The notes beneath the pieces are model-generated. The model saw only the letters and a program-made list of their open reading frames with translations. It was not told where the DNA came from and did not search any database. Position numbers and translations under genes: made by a program. DNA of 64,000 bases, taken from Triglochin maritima. Lineage: Eukaryota; Streptophyta; Magnoliopsida; Alismatales; Juncaginaceae. The stretch spans positions 44,228,925 through 44,292,924 of the forward strand of contig OY821772.1 of assembly GCA_963682175.1 (NCBI GenBank). Direction: 5' to 3'. Shown here in pieces: positions 17,986 to 55,952 of the stretch (position 1 is its first letter; every line of letters starts with the position of its first letter).

Positions 17986-19196
17986 TTATTTTTTAACATA
18001 ATAAGTAATAACAAAGTACCTAAACTATGAACAATTCAACAAAAAATATCCATTTGTAAAATAACTTAATTAAAATCAGTAAAAAAAATGAACAAACATG
18101 TAACTAAGTAATATTAGTCTACACTTTCCTAGCTATACGGCTACACCTAATACACGGTCAACCTATGACACCTACGAGGTGACCAACAGTTGTAGTCTAC
18201 ACGGTGTGCTCAAATTGCTGATGGAACTTACGGATCTGCAAATAGCTACTTCGCAGTTGATAACATCATAGTTCATAGATTCATAGTACAGTGATATGGT
18301 AACACTTCTTCAATTCTAAACAACGAAATGGTGTCCTGCGAAGTGGTAACCCTAGTTTAGCAGTAGCGTTGTTAACATGCAAACCCTTGGCATTTGCTAT
18401 ATATGCTTCGATTATTTTAATAGACAACAAATTGCAAGGTAGCCCTGCTAGCATCACTTTTCTAAATACATGACTGTCTACTTAATTTACATATTGCGTA
18501 TACTGTTAATACCGTTCAGGGTGTTCTTGTTATCAAAGTGAAGATCATGCTGGATTGGGACCCTAAGGGCAAGATCGGACCGGTGACACCTATGCCAGAT
18601 CTTGTTACGATTCATCCTCCCAAGGAGGAAGATGAATACATGCGGCCATTCACAGCACCTGCACTCCCCACTGAAGTAGAACCTCTTGCAGCTTGAGAAA
18701 ATATCGGTTGTAAGAGTTAAATATTTATAGCAAAGGAATCATTACCAGGGCAGGGGTTATGTAAAATTTTGAACCTTTAAGCTGACATTGGAAGAATGGA
18801 AGTTATTTAATGTTTTTCCAGAGTTTCTATATAATTTGCCTGAACCGTTTTCCATGTTTCCCTTGGATTATGAACGTAGTTATAATATATGTTTTGCTGG
18901 TGTTCTTTTTTGTAAAGGAAAATGATTAGCGACCGCTGTTTAGGACGCGCGTTGAGGACGCTGCTGAGTTGACTGCTTAGTTGGAGTCATCCATGTCAGC
19001 AAAACTTATAATTATTTTCTTATTTTTTATTTTCACTTCCCGATACGTTTCCAATCACATTAAATGCGTCTCAAATCAGTCAGTCCTCCCTCGTTTTGGC
19101 GTTCCTACGAATGATACACATCTCATGGATTTTCTTCCTCATTTTGTCTTCCTTTTGGCTCACTATCAACCATTTTCTTTCGTTCTTTGTACTCAA

Positions 19197-22126
19197 ATGG
19201 AGGAGACCTTAAACGTTCCGAAACAGCAGATATTTTTTCGTTCTTTCGAATACGTCAAAACATTTTACGTTGCCTATGCCGATTCATGTGGTTTTGGTGT
19301 TAAGATAAGACAATCTCATTACGATCGTGATGTTGTGATACGTGTCACACTGACTTGCTCCAAGGAGGGCCACGCTCCAGCAAACCAAGGAGAAGGGAAA
19401 CTAAAGCATAGGTTATCCGGTAGGGTCCAATGCACTGCTCAGATCAGGGTCTCTGGAAACCCAACAAGAGGGTACAACATAAACTATGTTGATCTTCAAC
19501 ATAACCACGCCATGCTTGAGGACGATCAAATGTGTTTCCTCCGACAAAAACGAGTCGTCCCTGATGCCGCCAGAGCACGCATATCGTGCAATGATTCTGC
19601 TGGGATATCGGCTGCTAATACCATGCAATCTTTTGTGGTTGAGGCTGGAGGTCATGACAAATTGACTTTCAACGAGCGGGACCTAAGGTGTGTGTTATTT
19701 TCTGCGTAATTTAATTGAAGTTAAACATTTTGCCCGGTCTTAAACATTACTTTGTGCAGGAACGTTGTAAACGAAGTCAGAAATTTGAAGATGGGACAGA
19801 ACGATGCACAAGCTCTTCAGAATTATTTCATCAGGATGCAGAAAATTGATTCTATGTTTTTTTATGTAATGGATATGGATGACGAAGGAAGACTACGAAA
19901 CGTGTTCTGGGCTGACTGTCGTTCTAGAGCTGCGTACTCATACTTTGGAGACGCAATATGTTTCGACACAACGTACATTACCAACCAATACGACATGCCT
20001 TTTGCCCCATTTGTAGGAGTAAATCACCATTTCGAATCGATTTTGCTCGGTTGCGCTTTGCTGTCTTCTGAGACCACTGAAAATTACATCTGGTTGTTCC
20101 AAACTTGGTTGTCGTGCATGAACGGTACGTATATACTTAGGGTCGGTCCGATTTAAGTCTCGTGTCTGTCCGGTTTAAGTTGTATGTATGCCTGGAATAA
20201 GTTGTGGTTCTGTCCAGAATAAGTAACATGTCTGTCCGGAATAAGGTCATTCTCTGTCCGGAATAAGATGTATGTATGTCCGGTTTAAGGTTTGAGTGTG
20301 TCCAGAATAAGTTCTGGTTGTATCCCGATAAAGTTGCTTGTCTGTCCGGAATAAGACATATGTCTGTCCGGATTAAGGTCATTGTCTGTCCGGAATAAGA
20401 TGTATGTCTGTCCGGATTAAGGTCCTTCTTTGTCCGGAATAAGATGTATGTTAGTCCGGAATAAGGTCCTTCTCTGTCCGGAATAAGATGTATGTCTGTC
20501 CGGTTTAAGTTTTGAGTGTGTCCAGAATAAGTTCTGGTTCTATCCAGACGAAGTTGCTTGTGTCTGGAATAAGGTTCTCCTCTGTCCGGAATAAGACGTA
20601 TGTCTGTCCGGAAGAAGTTCTAGGTGTTTCCGGAATATGGTTTGTTCGGAACAAGTTGGGTGTCTGTCCGGAATAAGTTGGGTGTATGTCCGGATTAAGT
20701 CGTATGTCTGTTCTGAATACTTTGTGGTTTTGTCCGTAATAAGTTGTGCTTGTCCGGATTAAGTTTTCAAAGTAGTTTTTCGTACCTTTGAATATATGAC
20801 TCACTCATTTAAAATTGCTCCCGTCCATGCAGATATAAGTCCCCCAGCGATCATAACAGATCAATGTGGCGTCGTTATTGCTGCTGTGAGGAATGTCTTC
20901 CCAAACGCGATGCACAAATTTTGTATATGGCACATAATGAACAAAGCTCCCGTGAAGTTGCCGACGCAGTATCGGAAACACATGCTATTTGATCTCAAAT
21001 TGATTGTATTTGATTCCGAAACCCCAGCAGAATTTGAGCGTAATTGGTAGGGTTTTCTTGGTGATTTTGACCTCCATAACCATAGTTGGCTCCAATCGAT
21101 TTATGCAATCCGAGGGTCCTGGATACCTGCATTTGTTGGAGATTGTTTCTTCGCAGGAATGACATCTACTCAGAGAAGCGAGGGTATGAACGGCTTTTTC
21201 GAGAAGTACCTGACATCTAAGACCACGCTTACGCAGTTCGTTGGACAATACGAACTCGCGCTCCGCCACAAGTATGAGAAGGAAGCTCAATCCGATTTCG
21301 ATTGTCTTCATAAGAGTCCCCAATTAGTTTCAATGTATCCATTCGAGAGGCAGTTGAGCGAGTTGTATACGGTAGGGGTCTTCAAGAAAGTACAATTACA
21401 AATTGGGAAGATGATATACTCCGATATTATGGAGGAGTTCAATACGGGTGACACATTCCATTACAAAGTATCTGAACGTGTATTATGTGGTGAGCAGCTA
21501 CTGTCGAAACGTTTCCTAGTACAAATCAGATCTACGAACTTCACATGTGATTGTAGAATGTTTCAGCACATTGGTTTTTTATGTTGCCACAATTTTGTTG
21601 TCATTGCACGCTTAGATCCTAATACATTGCTCCCGGAGTCTTACATCGTTAATCGATGGCAGAAAGATATTCGAAGGAGTCATCGAGAAAAAGTTACCCA
21701 GAAGATGACATAATGGAGAAGGATGCGCTTCGTCGTCATGACGACATAATGGGTCGTCTCGTTTGGATCGCACAAGAATCTTTCATTTCACACGCAAGGT
21801 ATCTTGAGGTCGTTAAGTACATTGAATTGCTTAAGGTACGTATGCAAAGTACCCAACGTCCTATTGAACTTGTTGAACCTGAGACGACGGGTACATCTGT
21901 TCTCAATCCAGATAAGGTAAGACGTCCAGGCAGACCGCCGACTAGACGACGGATTTCTTTAGCTGAGAAGATAGTTAGAAGAAGCCATACAAAGCACGAC
22001 AAACAAGAAAAGAGAAAGTTCAAGGAGAAGGTTACATCGTCGTTGCACCCAGTCACACCGAAACCGGGGGATGAAGATTTCGGTGATTGGGACATGAATC
22101 TGTATTACGAGGAACTTCCTCCTTAA
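19197..22126 (+). pseudogene. MULE transposase (MURA/FAR1-like), two breaks
   Basis: Exons are 19197-19687, 19760-20124 and 20833-22126. The N-terminal part (FYVAYADSCGFGVKIRQSHYD) is the FAR1-type DNA-binding domain. The middle part (FWADCRSRAAYSYFGDAICF) carries the first catalytic Asp of the MULE domain, followed by ITDQCGVVIAAVRNVFPNA and WHIMNK. A SWIM zinc finger (CDCRMFQHIGFLCCH) and a basic RRPGRPPTRRR stretch like an AT-hook follow. Breaks: TAG at 21048-21050, and a one-base shift near 21699 after which reading continues to 22126. The start is chosen at the ATG beside the region homologous to copy 2. An upstream ATG at 18981 is open but weak. Intron 2 (20125-20832) is almost entirely a 22-bp minisatellite. 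Confidence 0.88.
20140..20785 (+). repeat. Minisatellite array A, 22-bp unit, in transposase intron 2
   Basis: About thirty units of the general form CTGTCCGGAATAAGATGTATGT run in the direction of transposase transcription. Variants include GGTTTAAG and GGATTAAG in place of GGAATAAG. The array starts just after the donor at 20125 and stops about 50 bp before the acceptor at 20832. Confidence 0.93.
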
Positions 22127-22164
22127 TTTTAGATTTCCTGTTATTTTCCGTCTCTTGTAAAACT

Positions 22165-23355
22165 TATAAGTTGTGAAATGTGTTCCTGGTTTAAGTGGTT
22201 TAAGTGTCCGGATTACGATCTGAATCTGTCCGGATTAAGTGATTTTTGTGTCCAGATTAAGGTCCTGGTTTGTCCGGATTGAGGTCCTGGTTTGTCCGGT
22301 TTACGTTCTACCCTGTACCAATTATGTTGCTTGTGTGTCCAGATTATGGTTCTAGTGTGTCCGGATTACGTTGGGATCCTTCCGGATTACGTTCTGGGTC
22401 TGTCCGGTTTCAGTAGATTTTTTGTCCAGATTAAGTTCATGGTCTGTCCGGATTAAGGTTCTGGTCTGTCCGGATTGAGGTCCTGGTCTGTCCGGTTTAC
22501 GTTCTAGCTTGTACCAATTATGTTGCTCGTGTGTCCAGATTATGGTTCTAGTGTGTCCAGATTACGTTCGGGATCTGTCCGGATTACATTCTGGGTCTGT
22601 CCGGTTTAAGTGGATTTTTTGTCCAGATTAAGTTCATGGTCTGTCCGGATTAAGGTTCTGGTCTGTCCGGATTGAGGTCCTGGTCTGTCCGGTTTACGTT
22701 CTACTATGTACCAATTATGTTGCTCGTGTGTCCAGATTAGGGTTCTAGTGTGTCCGGATTACGTTCTGGGTCTGTCCGGTTTAAGCGGATTTTTTGTCCA
22801 GATTAAGTTCATGGTCTGTCCGGTTTACGTTCTACCATGTACCAATTATGTTGCTCGTGTGTCCAGATTATGGTTCTAGTGTGTCCGGATTACGTTGGGA
22901 TCTGTCCAGATTACGTTCTGGGTTTGTCCGGTTTAAGTCGATTTTTTGCCCAGATTAAGTTCATGGTTTGTCCGGATTAAGGTTCTGGTCTGTCCGGATT
23001 GAGGTCCTGGTCTGTCCAGTTTAAGTTCTAGCATGTACCAATTATGTTGCTCGTGTGTCCAGATTATGGTTCTAGTGTGTCCGGATTACGTTCGGGATCT
23101 GTCCGGATTACGTTCTGGGTCTGTCCGGTTTAAGTGGATTTTTTGTCCAGATTAAGTTCATGGTCTGTCCGGATGAAGGTCTGGTCTGTCCGGTTTACGT
23201 TCTAGCATGTACCAATTATGTTGAGCGTGTGTCCAGATTATGGGGACAGTGTGTCCGGATTACGTCTGGATCTGTCCGGATTACGTTGAGGGTCTGTCCG
23301 GTTTAAGTGTTCTTTGTGTCCAGATTAAGTTCATGGTCTGGTCCGGTTTACGTTC
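22165..23355 (+). repeat. Minisatellite array B with a higher-order repeat of about 197 bp
   Basis: Basic units of 22 bp (for example CTGTCCGGATTAAGGTTCTG) are grouped into blocks marked by GTACCAATTATGTTGCTCGTG. This marker lies at 22315, 22511, 22708, 22839, 23035 and 23209, so the spacings are 196, 197, 131, 196 and 174, close to 9, 9, 6, 9 and 8 units. The array sits between the convergent 3' ends of the two genes of MULE copy 1. Confidence 0.93.
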
Positions 23356-24269
23356 TTTTTAAAGAAAACATTCCAAAAATGGGCTTTGTAATTTGTAATT
23401 TCCTATCTTTTAAAAAATGGAGTTTGTAATTTGTAATTCCCTATCTGTAAAAAAATGAAGTTCGTAATTTGTACAACTAAAAAAAAGGATCACACTCCAG
23501 GAACTGGTGTTCAGATTTGCACACACAAACGGGGGTCCTTAAGCAACCAGAGCGTCAATTCGCCCCTGACACAGTGAATGACCTTCAGGTGCTTCTCCTT
23601 CGTTGGGTCAAGATTTAGCATTAAGCACCTGATCCAGTATAAAACATACGCTCCACAATCGTTGCTCCCAGGTGATTGTCGTTGGCTTTGCTTCCTTAGG
23701 ATTCTCAATGGTCAATCAACCTTCAGCACTTCCCTCCAGTATTTAGCCACCTCTGCTGCTGCGCATTCATGTGCGCCAACAAGGACGTCTGGATCTTCAC
23801 CTCGATCTAGCACCCTAGACGCACTGTTGAACTGCAGGAACTCCGCAGACGGACCGTAGGCAACCACCAGATGCCATTGGCCTGCAGACCAGCATGGTTG
23901 TGCGATTACGGATTCTTTTGGAGACAATCCGTTAATTTTAGGGAGTATACAATCATCAATTGCTCCCCCTTGACCCTCCACAATTCGTCCTGATTCGAAT
24001 GTTGATATACATATAACCTTTCGGGCTTGTCGTCTTCCTTGGAGGACCGAAATCATCACATCCATTGTTTCGTCGCCCATATCCATCCCCGATGTTATTA
24101 TTTCCTCCAGGTCGCAGCGTGTTAGACTATAGATGTCCCCTCTCCAGATCACCTATGTCTGGTCCGTGCTTGGTGCGGTCAAGTTCAATAACACATTGAC
24201 CTCATCAGCTGACAACGTCCCCAATGCGACCATGTCAACATCAGGCCTCGTCGCCCCTGAGTGGACAAC

Positions 24270-25020
24270 CAACTTGTAATTGTCGTCTTCTTTTTTCCCC
24301 TTTTTCGTTAGGCTCCTTTGGGCCACTCTGTCTTTTCTCTTTTGCTCCACTTCCACCTTCTTCTTCTTAGCCTGCTTTTCCTCATCTTTCCTCGAGCGTT
24401 GTCTTTTGACACCCCAGTTTGGTTTCTCCTCCTCTCTCTTCTTCTCCTCCCTCTTCCTCTCTTCTTCCTTCTCCTCCTCTCTCTTCTTCTCCTCCCTCTT
24501 CCTCTCTTCTTCCTTCTCCTCCTCTCTCCTCTTCTCCTCCTTCCTCCTCTCTTCTTCCTTCTCCTCCTCTCTCCTCTTCACCTCTCTCTTCCTCTCTTCT
24601 TCCTTCTCCTCCTCTCTCCTCTTCACCTCTCTCTTCCTCTCTTCTTCCTTCTCCTCCTCTCTCCTCTTCACCTCCCTCTTCCTCTCTTCTTCCTTCTCAT
24701 CCTCTCTCCTCTTCACCTCCCTCTTCCTCTCTTCTTCCTTCTGCTCCTCTCTCCTCTTCTCCTCCCTCTTCCTCTCTTCTTCCTTCTCCTCCTCTCTCCT
24801 CTTCTCATCCCTCTTCCTCTGTTCCGCATTCTCCGTCTGTCTCCTCTTCTCCACTCTCTTCCTTTCTTCTTCCTTGTCCTCCTCTTTTTTCCTCTGTTCC
24901 TCATTCTCTTTCCGGTTCCTCTCATTTTTCTTCTCCTCTTCCCTCTTCCTCTTTTCTGCCTTCTGCTCTTCTCTCTTCCTCTCTTCTTCCTTCTGCTCCT
25001 CCTGTTCCTCCTCTATATTT
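24270..25020 (-). repeat. Homopyrimidine/homopurine tract with 42-bp repeats (coiled-coil coding)
   Basis: The plus strand is almost pure C/T. Within 24420-24835 a 42-bp unit built around CTCTTCTTCCTTCTCCTCCT recurs about nine to ten times and encodes 14-residue Lys/Glu/Arg repeats on the minus strand. Long frames on the plus strand (Ser/Leu/Phe-rich) are by-products of this composition. Confidence 0.9.
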
Positions 25021-25577
25021 ACATATTGGGTCTTCTCCCTAATGTGAGTTTCACATGCCCCCGTTCCTCGTAGAGACACAATCTCTTTGCTCAACCTCCG
25101 ACACTCTTCGTGGGACATCCTCAGTTCTTCCTCCAGTCTGTTAACCTCTTCAGTCGCCTTCTTAAGGGCTGCTTTGGCTTGCAGCCATTTTGTCTTAACC
25201 TCACTCAGTTCCAACTCTTGTAGCAGCGAGTCCAATGGAATGCTGCAGTCTCTAAGTTGTAGCCTTGGCAAAGGGCATGTTGAAGCTGACCCCTTTGCTT
25301 TGTGCGACTCTTGAGCAGGATTTTGATCGGAACTCATCAGTTTCCGCTCCCTTTCACTTAGTGATGGAGGCCCCTTCAGGTCGAATTTGCAGTTGTAAAT
25401 CTCGGCTAAGGTTATTCCACGTTCCTCCCATTTCCTCAGGTGTAAACGTTTCCCAAATATTTCCGTCCAACTTTTCATCCGTGGATATGCTCGTCTGGGC
25501 TCCCCCAATTTGAATTTCTCACAAAACCACACCTTCAAATGGGAAAGATAAATGTTAATAAGCACTTCACAAAACAT

Positions 25578-26282
25578 ACACTATTTATTCCGGACAGACA
25601 GACATCGTATTCCGGACAGACCTATGCTTGATTCCTGACAGCCACAAAACGTATTCCGGACAGACATACATCTTATTCCCGATAGACCGAACTACATATT
25701 CCGGACAGACAGACATCATATTCCGGACAGACCTACGCTTGATTCCGGACAGCCACAAAACGTATTCCGGACAGACAGACATCTTATTCCCGACTGACTT
25801 CACTACTTATTCCGGACAGACAGACATCGTATTCTGGACAGACGCAATCCTGATTCCGGACAACCACAACGTATTCCGGATAGAAACCCAACTAAATAAT
25901 CACTCACAAGTATTCCGGACAGACAGACATCGTATTCCGGACAGACCTACTCCTCATTCCGGACAGCCAAACAACGTATTCCGGACAAACAAAAATCTTA
26001 TTCCGGACAAAAGATCTTACTATTCCGGACAGACAGACATCGTATTCCGGACAGACCTACTCCTCATACCGGACAACCAAACAACGTATTCCGGACAGAC
26101 AAAAATCTTATTCCGGATAAAAGATCATACTATTCCGGACAGACAGACATAACGTATTCCAGACAGACATACATCTTAGTCCCGATAGACCGAACTACTT
26201 ATTCCGGACAGACAGACATCGTATTCCGGACATACACAACACTGAATCCGGACTGACACACAACGTATTTCGGACAAAATTG
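25578..26282 (-). repeat. Minisatellite array C, 22-bp unit, in PMD-ULP1 intron 2 (copy 1)
   Basis: Units read on the minus strand contain TGTCTGTCCGGAATA, so they run in the sense direction of the PMD-ULP1 gene. They fill nearly the whole intron 25533-26287. Larger groupings are visible too: a block of about 130 bp with AAAAGATCTTACTATTCCGG is repeated near 26005 and 26127. Confidence 0.92.
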
Positions 26283-27393
26283 ATTACTTGTAGTATTGCT
26301 ACACAACCATCGACGCAACCCTGCTTCATAATGAAGTTCCCGGCCGATCTCATTTCCTGCAGTTCTAAGCTGGCTTCCTCCAGACCCCGAACCAGTACGA
26401 CGTGAACTGCACGTGCGCATGCATATCTGTTGATGCCTTTGAAGTCCCTCAAATGCTTCATGAACCAAATTTTGGTTCGAAGTGTTCCATCGAATAACAA
26501 AAAATGGTTGAAGATGAAACAAATAAGGAGTCGAACGTACTCCTTGGGGTCGCCCATCACACTAGTTGCAGTCAGATGCCCTAATAGTTGAGTATTGTCA
26601 AGGTTCACTCCATCTCGCTTTTGTACACCCGTCGGTTCCATAACAACTCTCTTCTCACGCACTCTTAGCCCCAGAATTAGGGCAACATCTTCAGCTGTAA
26701 GGGGGACTACCCCTGATCCTATTCTCAGCCCCACCTCCTTCGCGTCGTAGTGTTCGACGAACCATCCGAGTATTTCATTGTCCGTTGGAATGTTAGGAAA
26801 ATGTAGGAAGTGACCGAAAGCGGTCCCCCGGAAGACCTCATTTTCGACGTCCTTCATCCTACCGAACTACTTTTGAATCGCCGTCCAACCACACTTCGTT
26901 TCCCGGAAGTAGTACATCCTTCCCTAAAACAAACAAAAAATTCAAAGAAAGATCGTAAATAACAAATCCACCTACGAAAAAAACCTAAATCGACCCACCT
27001 GATGATCCACAACTTCTGGAGCGACAGCATTCCTCGGTGAATCCATTTATCGTTTTGTTGTGAAACACACGTAGAGGAACGGTTTTCGGATTTCTCTCTT
27101 CACAGTTACAGACACAAAGATGAAGGAACTATTCGTTTCCTTCATTTTTCATGGGTCTATTCGTTTCCTTCCTCGAGACTCGAACCGTCGCCACATTATG
27201 TCTGCGCGTCGTCTAATCGTTTGATTTGGAAACGAACCGTCGTACGTAATCAACCGTCGATTTTTTTTTTAAAAAAGGCACGTAGGGCGACGACTACGTG
27301 TCAACCTGACTGGACGCTGACTCAACATGCCTTAAGTGTCATGTCATGCGCGTCACGGACATCAGTGTCCGTGTATAAGGATCCTTTTGCAAA

Positions 27394-36538: not shown

Positions 36539-36945
36539 CGATCTTCTGTGTTTCCAATGAAACTCAATGGACTCGATATGAGTTCAATAAGAATGTGATT
36601 GTTGAGCTTGATAGGTTCGATTACTTTTGCATGTGAGCTCGGTAGGATTAGACTGAGTGTCTTGTGGAGTGTATGGAATTGATGGAAGTCGGACCGATTT
36701 TCTGTGTTTCCAACAAAGCTCGATATGAGTTCGATAAGAACGCGATTGTTGTACTCAATATGCTCAATTACTTTTACATGTGACCTCTATAGGATTAGAT
36801 TGAGTGTTTTGGGGAGTGTATCGAATCGATGGAAGTCGGACCGATCTTTTGTGTTTCCAACGAAGTTCGATATGAGTTCGATAATGACGCGATTGTTGTG
36901 CTCCATAGACTCGATTACTTTTGCATGTGAGCTCGATAAGGCCCG
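36539..36945 (+). repeat. Three tandem copies of a unit of about 150 bp
   Basis: Units start at 36539, 36695 and 36842, so spacings are 156 and 147. Each has TCTGTGTTTCCAA or TTTGTGTTTCCAA, CTCGATATGAGTTCGATAA, GCGATTGTTG and TACTTTTGCATGTGA. The third unit is shorter. The short frame at 36704-36982 crosses two units and has no recognisable domain. Confidence 0.9.
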
Positions 36946-47900: not shown

Positions 47901-49895
47901 TATTGACTCTCGATTCGTTTTCATCAACTAGGAGTAGGAATTGTAATGGGTACCTTAATTTGACCACCTCGATTAGAATTGCCACACAGTTTTGACTCAT
48001 TATGGACGTGATTGAACTCAAAGAAGAGGGACTGCTAAGCAAAATAATTGAAGAAATTTGACTTTGTTCTTCACTCCAATATCATATGGGATATAACTCA
48101 TTTGTCCTAACAAATCATTGCTGCAATAGTGCAATCAAACATGAAGATTCTACTGATCTAGTCTTTTTCAATTGTCAAGCAGATCTAGTCTTTACTCGCA
48201 TGTCGTTGTTTTAAACCAGGCATTGCATTTCAATTTCGAACGACAGGCTACTCAATCATTTAGTCAAGAGTTCAAGACATGCAACACTGAAATGATAGTA
48301 ACCCTCGGTCTTTACATGAGAAGGGAGCTTGATAGAATTTGTAGCCTGGAGAGAGCTTAAGAAAAACTACAAGAATGCCTGTATTTACAGGTTTCTATAA
48401 GGGTATTTCTGCAAAATACTTCCCGCCAATATTTTACTATTTTTCTCTGTCGTTGACTCGTGAGTTGTAGATACAATCTGATAATAAGATTTTGTAACGT
48501 AAAACAACATATACACGAAAAAGAATGTGGATTAAGATTTTTGTCGCTCTATCTTGTTGGTACCAACCACTTAGTATCGATCCGCCCTCGAAATACAATA
48601 ACCAAACAATGGCATTAGAATAACACAAAGTAAGAATCTTGGAAACACTTCAATTATTCTCGTTCTCCAAATTTAGAATTCAATAGAAACAAAAAATCGA
48701 TCTGGCTTGTTGAAGAGTGTCCGTTGCAGCTTTGGATAAAGAGGAAAAGGACATGTCCATGCAAGTATTGTCGTGAGTCGTGACGCTTGTGTTCCAAGAG
48801 ACAAGTAGAGAACAATCTAACAGCTGACAACGGTGGCATCTAAAGACGTAGGTTCATGATCGTGGCATCCCTTGTCTGGGTTTGTGGTTGCATGGGAACT
48901 GCAAAGAAGAAATAGATCGGCGGTGTTGGTCGGAGATGGCGATCCCGAGGTGAAGAGCATGCAACATCACTCTTCTTCTCTTTTGTCTTTTGCTTTCTCT
49001 TTTTTTCTTCACTTTCTTTTATGTCATTTCACATGTACCCTATGCTTTGTTTGGTTGGTTAGTTTTACTACATTCAAATTTTGAAAATTAAATACGAACT
49101 AATTTATTTAAAGACAAATCTGATCCTTGATTAAATAATAGTCTACCAACTAAGATTAGCTCTTTGATATATTATTTTCCATGTTAGACCCCTAACTAAT
49201 TTTGGTGGTTTGTGTAGACACTAAACTTTGATGGTTGATGTCAATATCCTCCGGTTTAGTTCCATTTACAGTGTGTAAACATTGAAAAGCATTGGCTTAG
49301 TATAATGAATTTGTATTGGCCAACAAAGATAAAAATGTTAAATGACGTTATTATTTTTTTGGTAAAATACACTTCTGTCACGCGTGATTCCCATGTGCAG
49401 GATCATATGGATTGCTTGGAAGGCTGGTAAGTGGATTAAAGTATGGAACTTTAATCTTGGTTGTGTGTTCTTTTTCCTGGCGAAGATCCCGTGAAGATAT
49501 ATATGGGACTTGTCCACAGAAGTCTTGAAGTGTCAGTGAGATGCTCGCCGCTTTCTATGACTAGTGTTTCAGTTTCTTGTTGTGTTCTGTTCCCGCACCT
49601 CCCTCAGACGTGACAAGGCATCTATCAAAAGAAGGGTCTTCTACGTGCACAGTTATGCAATAGCATTTTTATATTATATTTATAGTAGTAAGCATAAACA
49701 ACTTCCATAGATGTTGTAAGTTATAGCACAAAGTATTTGAACTGAATTAAGATTGTAATTTAACTTCAGCTCTTAACATTGATGCACAATATATCATGTT
49801 CGGCCCTAACCATGATCAATTTGGTGTTGATGATTTAACAAAAAAAATTAGTTTCCATGTCGCAAGAAGTGGTCTGGTTTCCCTAGGCATGAATA
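44906..49895. other. Long intergenic stretch without recognised genes
   Basis: AT-rich sequence with only incidental frames. It holds one clear tetranucleotide microsatellite (listed separately). The target duplication of MULE copy 2 is at its right end. Confidence 0.5.
47551..47588. repeat. (ATTC)n microsatellite
   Basis: About nine perfect repeats of ATTC, likely length-polymorphic. Confidence 0.97.
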
Positions 49896-50999
49896 TACGT
49901 ATTTGGGTTGTTATACACGGACGTGGGCGTCCGTGACGCGCCCTACGTGGCACCCAAAAGTTGGCGAGTCAGCGTCTAGTCGGATTGTCATGTCACTCTT
50001 TCGAAACGCGCCTTAAATTGTTTTTAATTTTTTTTGACGGTTTTCGAAGAACGACGGTTGCTTTCCAGATAAGACAGCGGTAGACACCCTACGAACGACG
50101 GTTCGGATACCGAGGAAGATACAAAAAAATATCCAGACCGAAAGGGAGAATTTCGCTTTCTTTCTCGTTGTATTACCTGTGAACGGAGGAAGCGTACCTG
50201 TGAACCTTTTCCGCCTTTCTTTCTTCCCGATTAAACGATAATGGATTCTTCGACTTCTGCCGTCGATAGCGAACCTGTCCCAGAACTGGTGGGTCTCTAA
50301 TTTTTTTCCCCTGGGTCGTTATTTTTTTTATGAACTTTCATTTCTTCAATTTTTTGTTTTAGGGAACCACCTACTACTTCCGGGAATCTCGGTGCTCCTG
50401 GACGGCCATCCGAAAGCAGTTTGACAGGATGAAGAAGGTTGAGAAGGAGGTTTTCCGGAGCACCCCTTTCGGTCACTTCCTAGACCTTCCTAACATTACT
50501 ACGGACAACGAAATAGTTGGTTGGTTCGTCGAACACTACGATGCGGAGGAGGTGGGGCTGAGAATAGGATCAGGGGTAGTTCCCCTTACACCAGAAGATG
50601 TTGCCCTAATTTTGGGGTTACGTGTGCATGAGAAGACCGTGGTGATGGAACCATTGGGTGTACAGAGGCGAGAAGGGGTGAACCTTGACAACACACAACT
50701 TTTAGGTCATCTGCTGGCAAGCAGTACCATGTGCGAGACAGAGGAGTACGTTCGTCTACTGATTTCTTTCATCTTCAACCATTTTTTGATCTATAATGGA
50801 ACACTTCGACCGAAGCAATGGTTCATGCACCCTTTGAGGAACATCAGACGCATAAACAGATACGCATGGGCAAGTGCAGTTCACGAAGCCCTGGTTGGGG
50901 GCCTGGAGAAAGCCAACTTAGAACTGCAGGAGAGAAGAAAGGCAGGGAACCTCATTATGAGGATGGGGCGACGGTTGTGTGGCAATACTACAAGTAAGT

Positions 51000-51600
51000 G
51001 TTTTTTGGTTTTATTTTGTCTGTTCGGATTAAGTTTTCTGTCTGTTTGGAATATGTTGTGTGTCTGTTCGGTTTAAGTTGTGTGTCTATTTGGTTTATGT
51101 TGTGTGTCTGTTCGGAATAAGTTGTTTGTCTGTTCGGAATAAGTTGTGTTTATGTTCGGAATATGTTGTGGGTCTGTTCAGATTAAGTGGTGTGTCTGTT
51201 CGGATTAAGTTTTCTGTCTGTTTGGAATATGTTGTGTGACTGTTCGGTTTAAGTTGTGTGTCTGTTCGATTTAAGTTGCGTGTCTGTTCAGAATATGTTG
51301 TGTGTCTGTTCGGAATATGTTGTGGATCTGTTCGGAATAAGTTGTGTGTCTGTTCAGATTAAGTTGTGTATCTGTTCGTAATATGTTGTGGGTCTGTTCG
51401 GAATAAGTTGTATGTCTATTCGGATTAAGTTGTGTGTCTGTTCGGAATAAGATGTCCGTTTGTTCGGAATATGTTGAGTGTCTGTTCGGAATATGTTGTG
51501 TGTCTGTTCAGAATAAGTACCTGTCTGTTCGGATTAAGTTGTGTGTCTGTTCGAATTATGTTGTCTGTCTGTTTGGATTAAGTTGTGCCTATTTTGAATA
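51000..51600 (+). repeat. Minisatellite in PMD-ULP1 intron 2 (copy 2), 22-bp unit
   Basis: About twenty-five units of the form CTGTTCGGAATAAGTTGTGT fill intron 50994-51653 in the sense direction of the gene. The core is TTCGGAA, TTCGGTT or TTCGGAT, whereas the same intron in copy 1 has TCCGGAA. Confidence 0.93.
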
Positions 51601-52149
51601 TGAACGTATGTCAATTGAGTCGTTCTAAACAATTGATTTTTTTCCATTTGAAGGTGTGGCTTTGTGAGAAATTCATATTGAGGGAGCCCAGAACTGGAGT
51701 ATTTCCACGAATGAGAAGTTGGACGGAAATGTTTGGGAAACGATTAACCCTGAGGAAATGGGAGGAACGTGGAATTACCTTACCTCAGATTTACAACGGC
51801 AAGTTCGACCTGATGGGGGCTCCATCAATGAGTGAAAGGGAGCTGGAACTTATTAGTTCTGTTCGAACTCCTGTTCGAAAGGGCTCAGCTTCAACAAGCA
51901 GTTTGCCAAGGCTCCAACTGACAGACTGCAACATTCCATGTGACCCGCTGCTGCAAGAGTTGGAGCTGAGTGAGGTGAAGACGAAATGGCTGAGGGCTGA
52001 AGCTGCCCTTAAGAAGGCGACAGAAGAGATTAACGACCTGAAGGAAGAACTGAGGATGACCCAGGAAGAGTGTGGGAGGCTGAGGGAAGAAATTATATAT
52101 CTTCGAGGGACAGGGACATGTGAAAATACTGGTGGGGAGAAAGACGAAG

Positions 52150-52800
52150 ATCTAAATATAGAGGAGGATGAGGAAGAAGAGGAGAAGGAAGAAGAGAGAA
52201 AGAAAGAGGAGGAAGAGAGAAAGAGGGAGGAGGAGAGGAAGAAGAGAGAAAGAGAAAGGAGGAGAAGGAGGAAGAGAGAAAGAGGGAGGAGGAGAGGAAG
52301 AAGGAAGAAGAGAGAAAGAGAGCGGAGAAGGAGGAAGAGAAGAAGAGGGAGGAGGAGAAGAAGAGGGAGGAGGAGAGGAAGAAGGAAGAAGAGAGAAAGA
52401 GATTGGAGAAGGATGAAGAGAAGAAGAGAGAGGAGGAGAAGAAGAGGGAAGAAGAGAGGAAGAAGGAAGAAGAGAGGAAGAGAGTGGAGAAGGAGGAAGA
52501 GAAGAAGAGGGAGGAGGGGAGGAAGAGGGAAGAAGAGAGGAAGAAGGAAGAAGAGAGGAAGAGAGTGGAGAAGGAGGAAGAGAAGAAGAGGGAGGAGGGG
52601 AGGAAGAAGGAAGAGAAGAATCAAGAAGAGGAAAAGGAACAAGAGAGCAAGCCCCAGAAACCAAACTGGGGCGTGAAAAGACAACGCTCGACGGCCATCG
52701 TGGAGCAGCAGAGGAAGGAAGATGAACAGCGGGGCAAGAAGAAGAAGGTGGAAGAAGAGCAAAAGAGAAAAGAGAGAGCGGCTCAAAGGAGCCTAAAGAA
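52150..52800 (+). repeat. Homopurine tract coding the coiled coil of copy 2
   Basis: The plus strand is nearly all A/G, built from variants of GAGGAAGAAGAGAGAAAGAG. All three plus frames are open for long distances. This hides where the true frame shifts, and long minus-strand frames (Ser/Leu/Pro-rich) are artefacts of it. Confidence 0.9.
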
Positions 52801-53694
52801 AAAATGGAAAAAAGGAGAATTATAGGTTGGTTGTCCACTTGGGAGGTAACAAGCCTGATGTTGACATGGCTGCAATGGGAACGTTGTCAGCAGATGAGGT
52901 CAACATGATATTGAACTTGACCGCAGCCAACAAGGACAATAGAGAGGTCATCTGGAGAGGCGATATGTGCAGTTTAACACGCACCGACCTGAAGGAACTT
53001 ATAACGCCTCGGATGGATATTAGCGACCAAACTATCGACGCTATGCTTTCGGTTTTCGAAGAAAGACGCCCAACACAAAAAGTTAAATGCATATCAACAT
53101 TCGAGTCAGGGCGAATTTTGGGTGGCCAAGGCAGAGCAATTGATGATTTTATCCTCCCTAAAATAGAAGGTGCGTCTCCAACAGAGTCCGTAATCGCACA
53201 ACCATGCTGGTCTGCAGGTCATTGGACTCTGGTGGTTGTCCACGGCCCGTCGAAAGAGATTTTGGCGTTCAACAATATCTCTAGGGAGCTAGAGCAAGGT
53301 GAAGATCCAGAGCAGACCATAGGCGTACATGAATGCACAACAGCGGATGTGGCTGACTACTGGAGGGATCTACTAAAGGTTGACTGACCCTTGAGAATCC
53401 TTAGGAAAAATAGCCAACGACAATCACCGGGGAGCAACGATTGCGGTGCCTATGTTTTATACTGGATAAGGTGCCTAATGCTAAAACTTGACCCGACGAA
53501 GGAGGACACCAATAACATCCACTGTATCAGGGATGAATTGACAGTCATGTTACTTAGGGACCGCCGATCGTGTGTGCAGATCTGAACAGAGACACAACTT
53601 TTAGTGTTTATTTGCTTACATGTACAAATTACAAACTCTTTATTTTGGTTATTTTTATAGTCTTGTGTTTTTTATATGTACAAATTACAAACTC

Positions 53695-54693
53695 TTCCCA
53701 GACAACTTATTCCAAACAGAAACAAAACTTAATCCGAACAGACCCACAACATATCACGAACAGACAGACAACTTATTCCGAACATACACACAACTTATTC
53801 CGAACAGACCCACAACATATTCTGAACAGGAAAACAACTTATTCCGAACAGACACACAACATATTCCGAACAGGAAAATAACTTATTCCGAACAGACCCA
53901 CAACGTATTCCGAACAGACACACAACATATTCCGAACAGACACACATCATATTCCGAACAGACCCACAACTTAAATGGAACAGACACACAACATAAACCG
54001 AACAGACACACTTCATATTCCGAACGGACACACATCATATTCCGAACAAACACAACTTAAACCGAACAGACACACAACTTAATCCAAACAGACACACAAC
54101 ATATTCCGAACAGATACACAACTTATTCCGAACAGACACAACTTATTCCGAACAGACACTCAACGTATTCCGAACAGACCCACAACTTAATCCGAATAGA
54201 CCGACCACTTAAAACGAACAGACCCACAACTTAAACCGAACAGACCCACAACTTAATCCGAACAGACAGACAACTTAATCCGAACAGACAGTCAACTTAT
54301 TCCGAACAGACAGACAACTTAATTCGAACATACAGACAACTTATTCCGAACAGACCCACAACTTAAACCGAACACATACACAACTTAAACCGAACAGTCA
54401 CACCACTTAACCCGAACACATACACAACTTAAACCGAACAGTCACACCACTTAAACCGAACCGTTCAACCACTTAAACCATACCGTTCCACAACTTAAAC
54501 CGAACAGTAACACCACTTAAACCGAACAGTCAAGCCACTTAAATCGAACATTCACACCACTTAAACCGAACGGATTCACACCTTAAACAGAACAGTCCCA
54601 CCACTTAAACCGAACATTTCCACCACTTAAACCCAACAGTTCCACCACTTAAACCGAACACATACATATCTTAAACTGAACAGTCACACCTTA
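53695..54693 (-). repeat. Fused minisatellite between the ULP1 3' end and transposase exon 2 (copy 2)
   Basis: About forty-five units read on the minus strand as TGTCTGTTCGGAATAAGTTG, in the sense direction of the transposase. The left part is mostly the GGAATAAG subtype, while from about 54360 to the right the GGTTTAAG subtype dominates. It directly follows the transposase exon 2 donor. Confidence 0.92.
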
Positions 54694-54694
54694 C

Positions 54695-55635
54695 CGTTCA
54701 TGCACGACAACTATGTTTGGAACAACCATATGTAATTTTCAGTGGTCTCAGAAGACAGCAAAGCGCAACCGAGCAAAACTGACTCGAAATGGTGATTAAC
54801 TCCTACAAATGGGGCAAAAGGCATGTCGTATTTGTTTGTAGTGTAGGTGGTGTCGAAACATATTGCGTCTCCAAAGTATGAATATGCAGCTCTAGAACGA
54901 CAGTCAGCCCAAAACACGTTCCGTAGTCTTCCTTCGTCATCCATATCCATTACATAGAAAAACATGGAATCAATCTTCTGCATCCTAATGAAATAGTTCT
55001 GAAGAGCTTGTGCATCACCAGGTCCCATCTTTAAATTTTTGACTTTGTTTACAACATTCCTGCACACAGGAACCACTAAGACCAGGAGCAAAATGTTCAA
55101 CTTCAATTATGTTAGGCAGAAAGAACACAAACCTTAAATCCATTTTGTTGAAAGTCAATTTGTCATGACCTCCAGCCTCGACCATAAAAAATTGCATGGT
55201 CTTAGCAGTCGATATCCCAGCAGTATCATTGCACGATATGCATGCTTTGGCGGCCTCAGGGACAGTTCGTTTTTGTCTGAGAAAACGCATTTGCTCTTGT
55301 TCAAGCATGACGTGGTTATGTTTAAGATCCACAAAGTTAATGTGGTAACCCCTTGCTGGGTTTCCGGAGACCCTTATCCGAGCAGTGCATTGGACTCTAC
55401 TGGATAACCTAGGCTTCAATTTTCCTTGCCATTGGTTTGTTGGTGTCGTGCCCTCCTTGGAGCAAGTCAGCGTGACCCGTATAACAACACCACGATCGTA
55501 ATGAGATTGTCTTGTCTTAACACCAAAACCACAAGAATCGGCATAAGCCACGTAAAATGTTTTGGCTTCTTCGAAAGAAGGAAAAAACATCTCCTCCTTA
55601 GGAACATTTGCCGGCTCCTCCACTTGGGGGCACAT
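54695..55635 (-). pseudogene. MULE transposase, exons 1-2 only (copy 2)
   Basis: Exon 1 is 55635-55133 and exon 2 is 55059-54695, 365 bp, the same length as exon 2 in copy 1. The FAR1-type domain (FYVAYADSCGFGVKTRQSHYD) and the first catalytic Asp region (RSRAAYSYFGDAICFDTTY) are present. Near the end of exon 2 the codon after WLFQT is TAG (Trp in copy 1). The exon 2 donor (GTAAGG) survives but exon 3, with the SWIM finger and the rest of the catalytic core, is absent. In its place is minisatellite followed by the ULP1 gene. No active protein can be made. Confidence 0.9.
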
Positions 55636-55952
55636 GAACGATTTTCATTGGAGTACAGAGGAAGGACCACAGAAGAGATGAGAAGAAAAGGAAGACGCAT
55701 CTTGAGATGAATAACAAATCTTCTGCTGTGTAGGAGCGCCAAAATAATGAAGGAAGGGAGTGATTTGAGACGCATTAATGAGAGATGAAGGGAGAGATGA
55801 ATAGATGTAGACATTTGTACGTATAACCTAAGAATTGAGGAATAAAATAAAAAATGAATCTTTTTTCTGTACTGACATGGATAGTGTCAACTCAGCTGCG
55901 TCACCGAAAGAGCGTCCTAAAGAACAGTCATCTATCATTTTCCTACGTATTT

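Follow-up and report, generated by a model that had tools for sequence, protein, structure and literature searches.

Why should a transposable element with two genes fill one intron per gene, and the intergenic gap as well, with tandem repeats, and could such repeats serve the element that carries them? The question is raised by a 64,000-nucleotide stretch of Triglochin maritima DNA (the window: assembly GCA_963682175.1, contig OY821772.1, C4 in our searches, forward-strand positions 44,228,925 to 44,292,924). It holds a complete Mutator-like element (MULE; element 1) with two convergent genes, one on the plus strand for a FAR1-type transposase and one on the minus strand for a protein combining a plant mobile domain (PMD), a coiled coil and a Ulp1/C48 peptidase domain. 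Three arrays of 22-bp units, A in the transposase gene, C in the PMD-Ulp1 gene and B between the two, keep their places and their sense in the other copies that we compared, and have in common an 8-bp core that is kept while the spacer drifts. From the sequences and by analogy with the VANC system of VANDAL elements, we propose tentatively, at somewhat less than an even chance, that the arrays are reiterated binding sites for a protein encoded by the element, most likely PMD-Ulp1, with a VANC-like anti-silencing effect.

Placement and sense of the arrays

A preliminary description of this DNA had placed an element at 18917..27384, and a search of boundaries and target site duplications (TSDs) showed these to be the ends of a Mutator-like element, flanked by TTTTGTAAA and TTTTGCAAA (18908-18916 and 27385-27393), which match at 8 of 9 bases. 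The same description had reported 22-bp TCCGGA units in one intron per gene and in the intergenic gap, with A and C in the sense of their host gene. This layout is confirmed: Tandem Repeats Finder returned a period-22 row for each array, and identity at lag 22 (A 0.65, B 0.61, C 0.59) lies far above the maximum of 0.33 among 200 base shuffles of each. Array A makes up 624 of the 708 bp of transposase intron 2, array C 691 of the 755 bp of the PMD-Ulp1 intron and array B 1152 of the 1384 bp separating the two stop codons, with 15 (A), 19 (B) and 23 (C) exact copies of TCCGGA. Array B has additional higher-order periods of 131 and ~197 bp.

Copies were sought in the 1.06-Gb genome with the Ulp1 piece; 150 of 2,372 first-look candidates were scored, and all 150 matched. 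The 27 coding elements compared comprise 20 close relatives, hand-picked and thus not random (taken high in the list of 150 matches and stop-free in the matched piece), the C1 copy, two elements from the match list, two intermediate ones and the two window elements; the L035, L036, L038, L039 and C21 pieces were likewise hand-picked, and the coiled-coil piece, because of its low complexity, was omitted from the tblastn feature lists. Wherever both flanking exons are present, so is the array (A 23/23, B 25/25, C 22/22), and its sense is identical to that in the window at 70/70 flanked positions, across subfamilies. The comparison with further genomic copies that the preliminary description had suggested has therefore yielded no copy with both flanks and no array, and since the arrays occupy the same element positions in the copies, with the same sense, independent insertion of an unrelated satellite is ruled out. 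Past the transposase exons of one copy (L034, 9426-9788) lies an extra 11/22-bp repeat with cores in mixed sense.

Among copies in which the anchor was found, intron A has a donor GT in 21/23 and an acceptor AG in 20/21, and intron C has an acceptor AG in 23/24; after G, the intron C donor reads TAA, as expected, at 22 of 25 sites, the remaining three looking like false anchors. That splice sites are mostly kept, and that A and C lie in host-gene sense in every copy with both flanks, would also suit a role at the RNA level, in splicing, in the choice of poly(A) sites (AATAAG being like AATAAA) or in the supply of small RNAs, all the more as tandem repeats can supply small interfering RNAs according to passages of PMC10398659. 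Such a role is nevertheless very unlikely in our view, considering that array B is antisense to the PMD-Ulp1 gene, that the best common part of the units is TGTCCGGA, with its CpG, and not AATAAG, and that an array also occurs in a non-autonomous element that lacks these genes (L037, see below).

The best TSD match near the ends is 9/9 in 8 of 10 elements (for L022 with the boundary shifted by one base) and 8/9 in the other two, with nearby offsets searched (a 9 x 12 grid in eight elements and a wider one in element 2 and L037), which suggests that the elements inserted fairly recently. In a test for terminal inverted repeats (TIRs), none of 200 shuffles reached the end-to-end score of L021 and L037 (2/10 elements), and 2-61 did so in each of the other eight. 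The ends are thus degenerate, as is the case in non-TIR MULEs, and the element is not a MULE with long TIRs.

Evolution of core and spacer

The preliminary description had viewed the non-coding parts of the element as largely one homogenised satellite. In 18 elements with the TCCGGA core, a unit lies on average 2.54 mismatches from its best match in the corresponding array of other elements, against 5.53 for the other arrays of its own element and 5.53 for arrays at other positions elsewhere (all unit counts leave out segments with <5 cores and units with <9/22 consensus matches, and that for array A of L034 apparently takes in a segment outside the element). A unit is therefore as distant from the differently placed arrays of its own element as from those of other elements, and a single homogenised satellite is rejected for the TCCGGA subfamily: each of A, B and C is a lineage of its own, and they have the 8-bp core in common but not the spacer. 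This core reads TGTCCGGA, and in a second subfamily TGTTCGGA. In the TCCGGA subfamily, neighbouring units, compared without gaps and anchored on positions 9-13, are identical at 78-90% for positions 1-8 and at 44-50% for positions 14-22, where composition alone predicts 27-29%, and the averaged Jensen-Shannon divergence among A, B and C is 0.017-0.052 at positions 1-8 and 0.076-0.153 at positions 9-22. At position 9, arrays A and C have A where B has T; position 12 varies in both B and C.

A core that is kept beside a drifting spacer fits a repeated binding site, whereas a neutral satellite should drift evenly. Neutral growth, by slippage and unequal exchange of a 22-bp seed in tolerant non-coding places and inheritance by the copies, would explain the wide range of array lengths in close relatives (325-1139 bp for C, 581-2063 bp for B), and the higher-order repeats indicate turnover. 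The arrays of the TTCGGA subfamily, moreover, appear re-founded, and a change from C to T within CCG is one that plant DNA methylation would be expected to produce. What neutral growth does not predict is an 8-bp core kept in three separate arrays and in L037 while the spacer drifts, or one fixed sense at every flanked position, and we judge it improbable. Among the roles that had been suggested earlier, protein binding fits best; the different decay of core and spacer makes runaway amplification a poorer fit. As for the core CpG, its loss is asymmetric, position 6 being A in 17% (array A) and 26% (array B) of units and position 5 being T in just 3-4% of units of these two arrays. This is not the pattern of symmetric CpG deamination, and TCCAGA may represent another motif type that is tolerated.

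The second element of the window (element 2) is a related copy in the opposite orientation, with TSD TACGTATTT (9/9). Position 4 of its units is T in 45 and C in 0 of 49 units of its joined A/B array (A/B'), and T in 28 and C in 0 of 29 units of its array C'; a third element of this TTCGGA subfamily has 25 T and 0 C at this position, both its arrays examined. Overall, the majority base at position 4 is C in 72/72 arrays of 26 elements and T in 7/7 arrays of the three TTCGGA-subfamily elements, and it remained unchanged upon a recount of 10 T-consensus array segments. In the unrooted Ulp1 tree, element 2 and L035 form a clade with support 1.000 that adjoins L039 and L038, both of which carry TCCGGA, so that a single change between TCCGGA and TTCGGA is the simplest account; as the tree is unrooted, TTCGGA can be called at most the likely newer state. 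Transposase exon 3 was not found in element 2, which together with its joined A/B array is the pattern expected from recombination between two same-sense arrays; L035 likewise is without part of the transposase exon 3 / A-B region.

The core also occurs in the one non-autonomous element that we analysed, L037 (2,383 bp, 9/9 TSD ATTTAAAAA), whose ends partly resemble those of the coding elements. It has a single 22-bp array with the TCCGGA core (position 4: 56 C, 2 T of 62 units), with units 4.35, 5.90 and 4.66 mismatches away from those of A, B and C, respectively. Outside this array there is no match below E 0.1 to the coding parts of the element, and the matches inside it correspond to the query stretch that runs into array C. 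Genome-wide, TCCGGA-N16-TCCGGA is found at 49,603 places (reversed pattern, 11) and TTCGGA-N16-TTCGGA at 25,602 places on one strand and 26,079 on the other (23 and 33 for the reversed pattern). Given a mean of 24 exact 22-bp-spaced core pairs in each of 17 near-complete TCCGGA elements, the TCCGGA pairs extrapolate to ~2,000 element-equivalents; many of the listed TCCGGA-pair places on C1 have a different spacer (GTGTATTTG...), L037 being one of them.

Candidate binding proteins and known anti-silencing systems

If the arrays are binding sites, a DNA-binding protein from the element itself would recognise the 8-bp core, once every 22 bp. The likeliest ligand would be the PMD-coiled-coil-Ulp1 protein, which, bound along the introns and the intergenic gap, may lift or prevent the silencing of its family by host DNA methylation. 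In this protein, Peptidase_C48 (PF02902) was detected in 7/7 other copies scanned (best E 2.8e-8), and the Ulp1 catalytic His and Cys are invariant in 7/7 copies aligned, as befits a Ulp1/C48-carrying MULE. The slot 17 residues past the His, which we take to be that of the Ulp1 catalytic Asp, is Asn in 7/7 copies, as in papain-type triads, and the Ulp1 domain of element 1 (23514-24152) has lost the His. PF10536 (plant mobile domain) matches 6/6 members scanned (best E 1.1e-6) and scores E 0.024-0.028 on the window copies (~14 bits, under the gathering cut-off of 34.9 bits). The PMD and Ulp1 pieces have no Pfam match to DUF1985 or DUF287, their other Pfam lines being a weak EF-hand (0.26) and S_100 (0.26). 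AlphaFold models from the two window copies were unusable (predicted local distance difference test, pLDDT, 43.6 for PMD and 35.8 for Ulp1), a search for homologues of the Ulp1 region in a protein collection gave 535 candidates, none with E <=0.001, and a PDB search gave three weak matches, every one within the coiled-coil part. By eye, the DOWN motif of MAIN/MAIL1 (CATGCAGTTT) is unlike the array core.

Both genes are constrained between subfamilies, the median ratio of nonsynonymous to synonymous rates (dN/dS) being 0.09-0.39 in all pieces except the transposase C-terminus (0.66). Median dN between subfamilies is 0.15-0.20 in the PMD and Ulp1 pieces and 0.03-0.11 in the FAR1 and catalytic pieces of the transposase (exon 2 0.03, FAR1 0.11), with 0.19 in its C-terminus (exon 3c). 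Several points weigh against binding by PMD-Ulp1. To our knowledge, PMD has no established DNA-binding role. The dN of the transposase C-terminus is level with that of PMD and Ulp1, dN/dS reaches 0.45-0.73 within the subfamily of element 1, and the close relatives of this element are not independent witnesses. The core differs through a single event, and the tree is unrooted, which is too little to establish co-variation of protein and motif statistically. The TTCGGA arrays are also alike in spacer (2.5-3.7 mismatches) and their core/spacer contrast is weak (0.90 vs 0.75), so that re-founding from one unit or conversion could explain their uniform core. The core of array B varies at positions 6 and 8 (neighbour identity 46% and 39%), and the helical phasing of off-register spacings is clear in array B only.

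The main rival holds that the FAR1-type transposase binds the arrays, which would then serve transposition or transposase-linked demethylation, with PMD-Ulp1 doing something else. A model for this exists in Spm, where subterminal repeats serve as TnpA sites; the transposase does carry a FAR1 domain, which Pfam calls DNA-binding, and the non-autonomous L037 has retained both its ends and its array. TnpA and MURA have also been linked to demethylation, according to passages of Sasaki 2023 (PMC10398659). We nonetheless regard transposase binding as unlikely: array B lies mid-element, >3 kb from both ends, neither TCCGGA nor TTCGGA occurs in the 70 outermost bases of the window elements, and the catalytic part of the transposase is nearly unchanged between the subfamilies that differ in core, although FAR1 and exon 3c do differ between them. 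ACGCGC, a motif that we take to be like FAR1 sites, was also considered as a transposase site in the ends and rejected as inconsistent (0-2 per end in 8 elements, 0 in the transposase-side end of 7/8).

Among known systems, these elements come closest to VANDAL21 and VANDAL6 of Arabidopsis with their VANC anti-silencing proteins. Satellite introns in a MULE, which the preliminary description did not know in this form from the literature, are not new in kind, since parts of Hosaka 2017 (PMC5735166) describe tandem motif repeats in the VANC21 and VANB21 introns of VANDAL21, as well as the joint evolution of repeats of a VANDAL motif. Anti-silencing by VANC has been shown in Arabidopsis VANDAL elements, as set out in sections of PMC5735166 and PMC10398659. 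Compared with what these sections of PMC5735166 describe, the Triglochin elements are alike in having tandem repeats of a short motif in non-coding parts such as introns and gene gaps, a second protein with tandem peptide repeats, and a transposase better conserved than the second protein (VANA against VANC in the VANDAL elements); the degenerate TIRs are also shared (Sasaki 2023, PMC10398659, in part), as is a motif that differs between subfamilies, with the reservation that here this is one difference, seen in 3/3 TTCGGA elements examined. They are unlike VANDAL/VANC in the FAR1 domain of the transposase, in the PMD-coiled-coil-Ulp1 second protein with no DUF1985/DUF287 match, in their convergent genes with one array between, and in the regular 22-bp unit, whose core is TCCGGA/TTCGGA (vs YAGTATTAY or AGTTGTMC). 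On present evidence they are VANDAL/VANC-like in architecture and, because DUF1985 is missing from the Pfam matches, should not be filed as VANDAL/VANC members. VANDAL elements make a 9-bp TSD, a length found here as well. Work by Sasaki in 2022 is said to have described the gain and loss of VANC domains in eudicots, and reportedly motif density and helical spacing matter there and non-autonomous copies are targeted too.

Ulp1/C48 in a MULE gene is likewise a feature of Kaonashi (KIU) non-TIR MULEs (Hoen 2006, as related in passages of PMC13317346 and PMC6117577). The passages of the review also state that some VANC genes carry Ulp1 and that KIU-carrying VANDALs recognise motifs of their own kind and induce hypomethylation (PMC13317346, PMC6117577). 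The KIU protein reviewed there is VANC, however, whereas the N-terminal part here is PMD-like. For PMDs captured by MULEs, an anti-silencing service has been speculated upon by Ikeda 2017 (PMC5418596), in passages that do not mention motif arrays; the elements reported there also have the PMD within a MULE, but with PMD-C fused to the transposase (grasses, Amborella), unlike the separate, Ulp1-fused gene described here. No PMD-Ulp1 MULE with motif arrays was found in a literature search mostly short of full text and without the eudicot VANC survey. Jittery/FAR1-type MULEs, the source of FHY3/FAR1, have the FAR1-MULE-SWIM order also seen in this transposase, and we know of no PMD-Ulp1 gene or motif array in them.

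It is conceivable, though we think it doubtful, that PMD-Ulp1 MULEs evolved a sequence-specific anti-silencing factor with self-addressed intronic arrays separately from DUF1985-type VANC, so that a host silencing domain (MAIN/MAIL1) would have been turned against the host, with at least two specificities (TCCGGA and TTCGGA) side by side and with non-autonomous followers. If a FAR1-type MULE with a PMD protein does use the VANC architecture, escape by means of intronic motif arrays would be a recurrent strategy. A single genome with two motif types, each present at tens of thousands of sites, would offer a natural test of co-change between protein and target, and PMD would gain a concrete candidate DNA target.

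Gene structure and decay of the window elements

The element 1 copy is decayed, with transposase exon 3 and PMD-Ulp1 exons 2 and 3 all interrupted (Table 1). Two of its nonsense codons were checked across copies and are stops in 3/18 and 6/25 rows, element 1 included. A second PF10551 match on the transposase (E 7.4e-10) completes its MULE domain, and the SWIM in exon 3 has a Pfam score under the cut-off.

Table 1. Features of the two window elements, in window positions (array consensus sequences are taken over close relatives of element 1).
Feature	Position	Strand	Basis and remarks
Element 1, complete MULE	18917..27384	+	8,468 bp
Transposase exon 1, FAR1 DNA-binding domain	19197..19687	+	Pfam PF03101 E 1.4e-15; boundaries from sequence
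Transposase exon 2, first part of MULE domain	19760..20124	+	PF10551 E 2.3e-16; boundaries from sequence
Transposase intron 2 (GTACGT...GCAG), holds array A	20125..20832	+	Splice sites compared across copies
Array A, 22-bp units, transposase sense	20142..20765	+	Tandem Repeats Finder; consensus TGTCCGGAATAAG + 9-bp spacer
Transposase exon 3: remaining MULE domain, SWIM, C-terminus	20833..22126	+	Broken by nonsense codon and frameshift
Array B, between the convergent genes, transposase sense	22205..23356	+	Tandem Repeats Finder; consensus TGTCCGGATTAAG
PMD-Ulp1 exon 3: coiled coil (45-bp/15-aa charged repeats) and Ulp1/C48	23511..25532	-	Nonsense codon here
PMD-Ulp1 intron, holds array C	25533..26287	-	Boundaries from sequence; acceptor AG common in copies
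Array C, 22-bp units, PMD-Ulp1 sense	25586..26276	-	Tandem Repeats Finder
PMD-Ulp1 exon 2, plant mobile domain-like	26288..26923	-	PF10536 in relatives; nonsense codon near start here
PMD-Ulp1 exon 1 (putative)	26999..27046	-	Read from sequence
Element 2, related copy, opposite orientation	49905..55943	-	9/9 TSD 49896-49904 / 55944-55952
Array C' of element 2 (TTCGGA core), within the PMD-Ulp1 intron and in the sense of that gene	51017..51587	+	Tandem Repeats Finder and unit counts
Joined A/B array of element 2 (TTCGGA core), in transposase sense	53702..54690	-	Ulp1 gene end vicinity to transposase exon 2

Tandem repetition also affects coding sequence, the coiled-coil exon being itself a tandem repeat in element 1 (45-bp unit, 24424-24983) and in element 2 (63/81-bp unit, 52160-52651). 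A further tandem repeat, of a 147-bp unit in 2.5 copies (36572-36938), lies outside both window elements.

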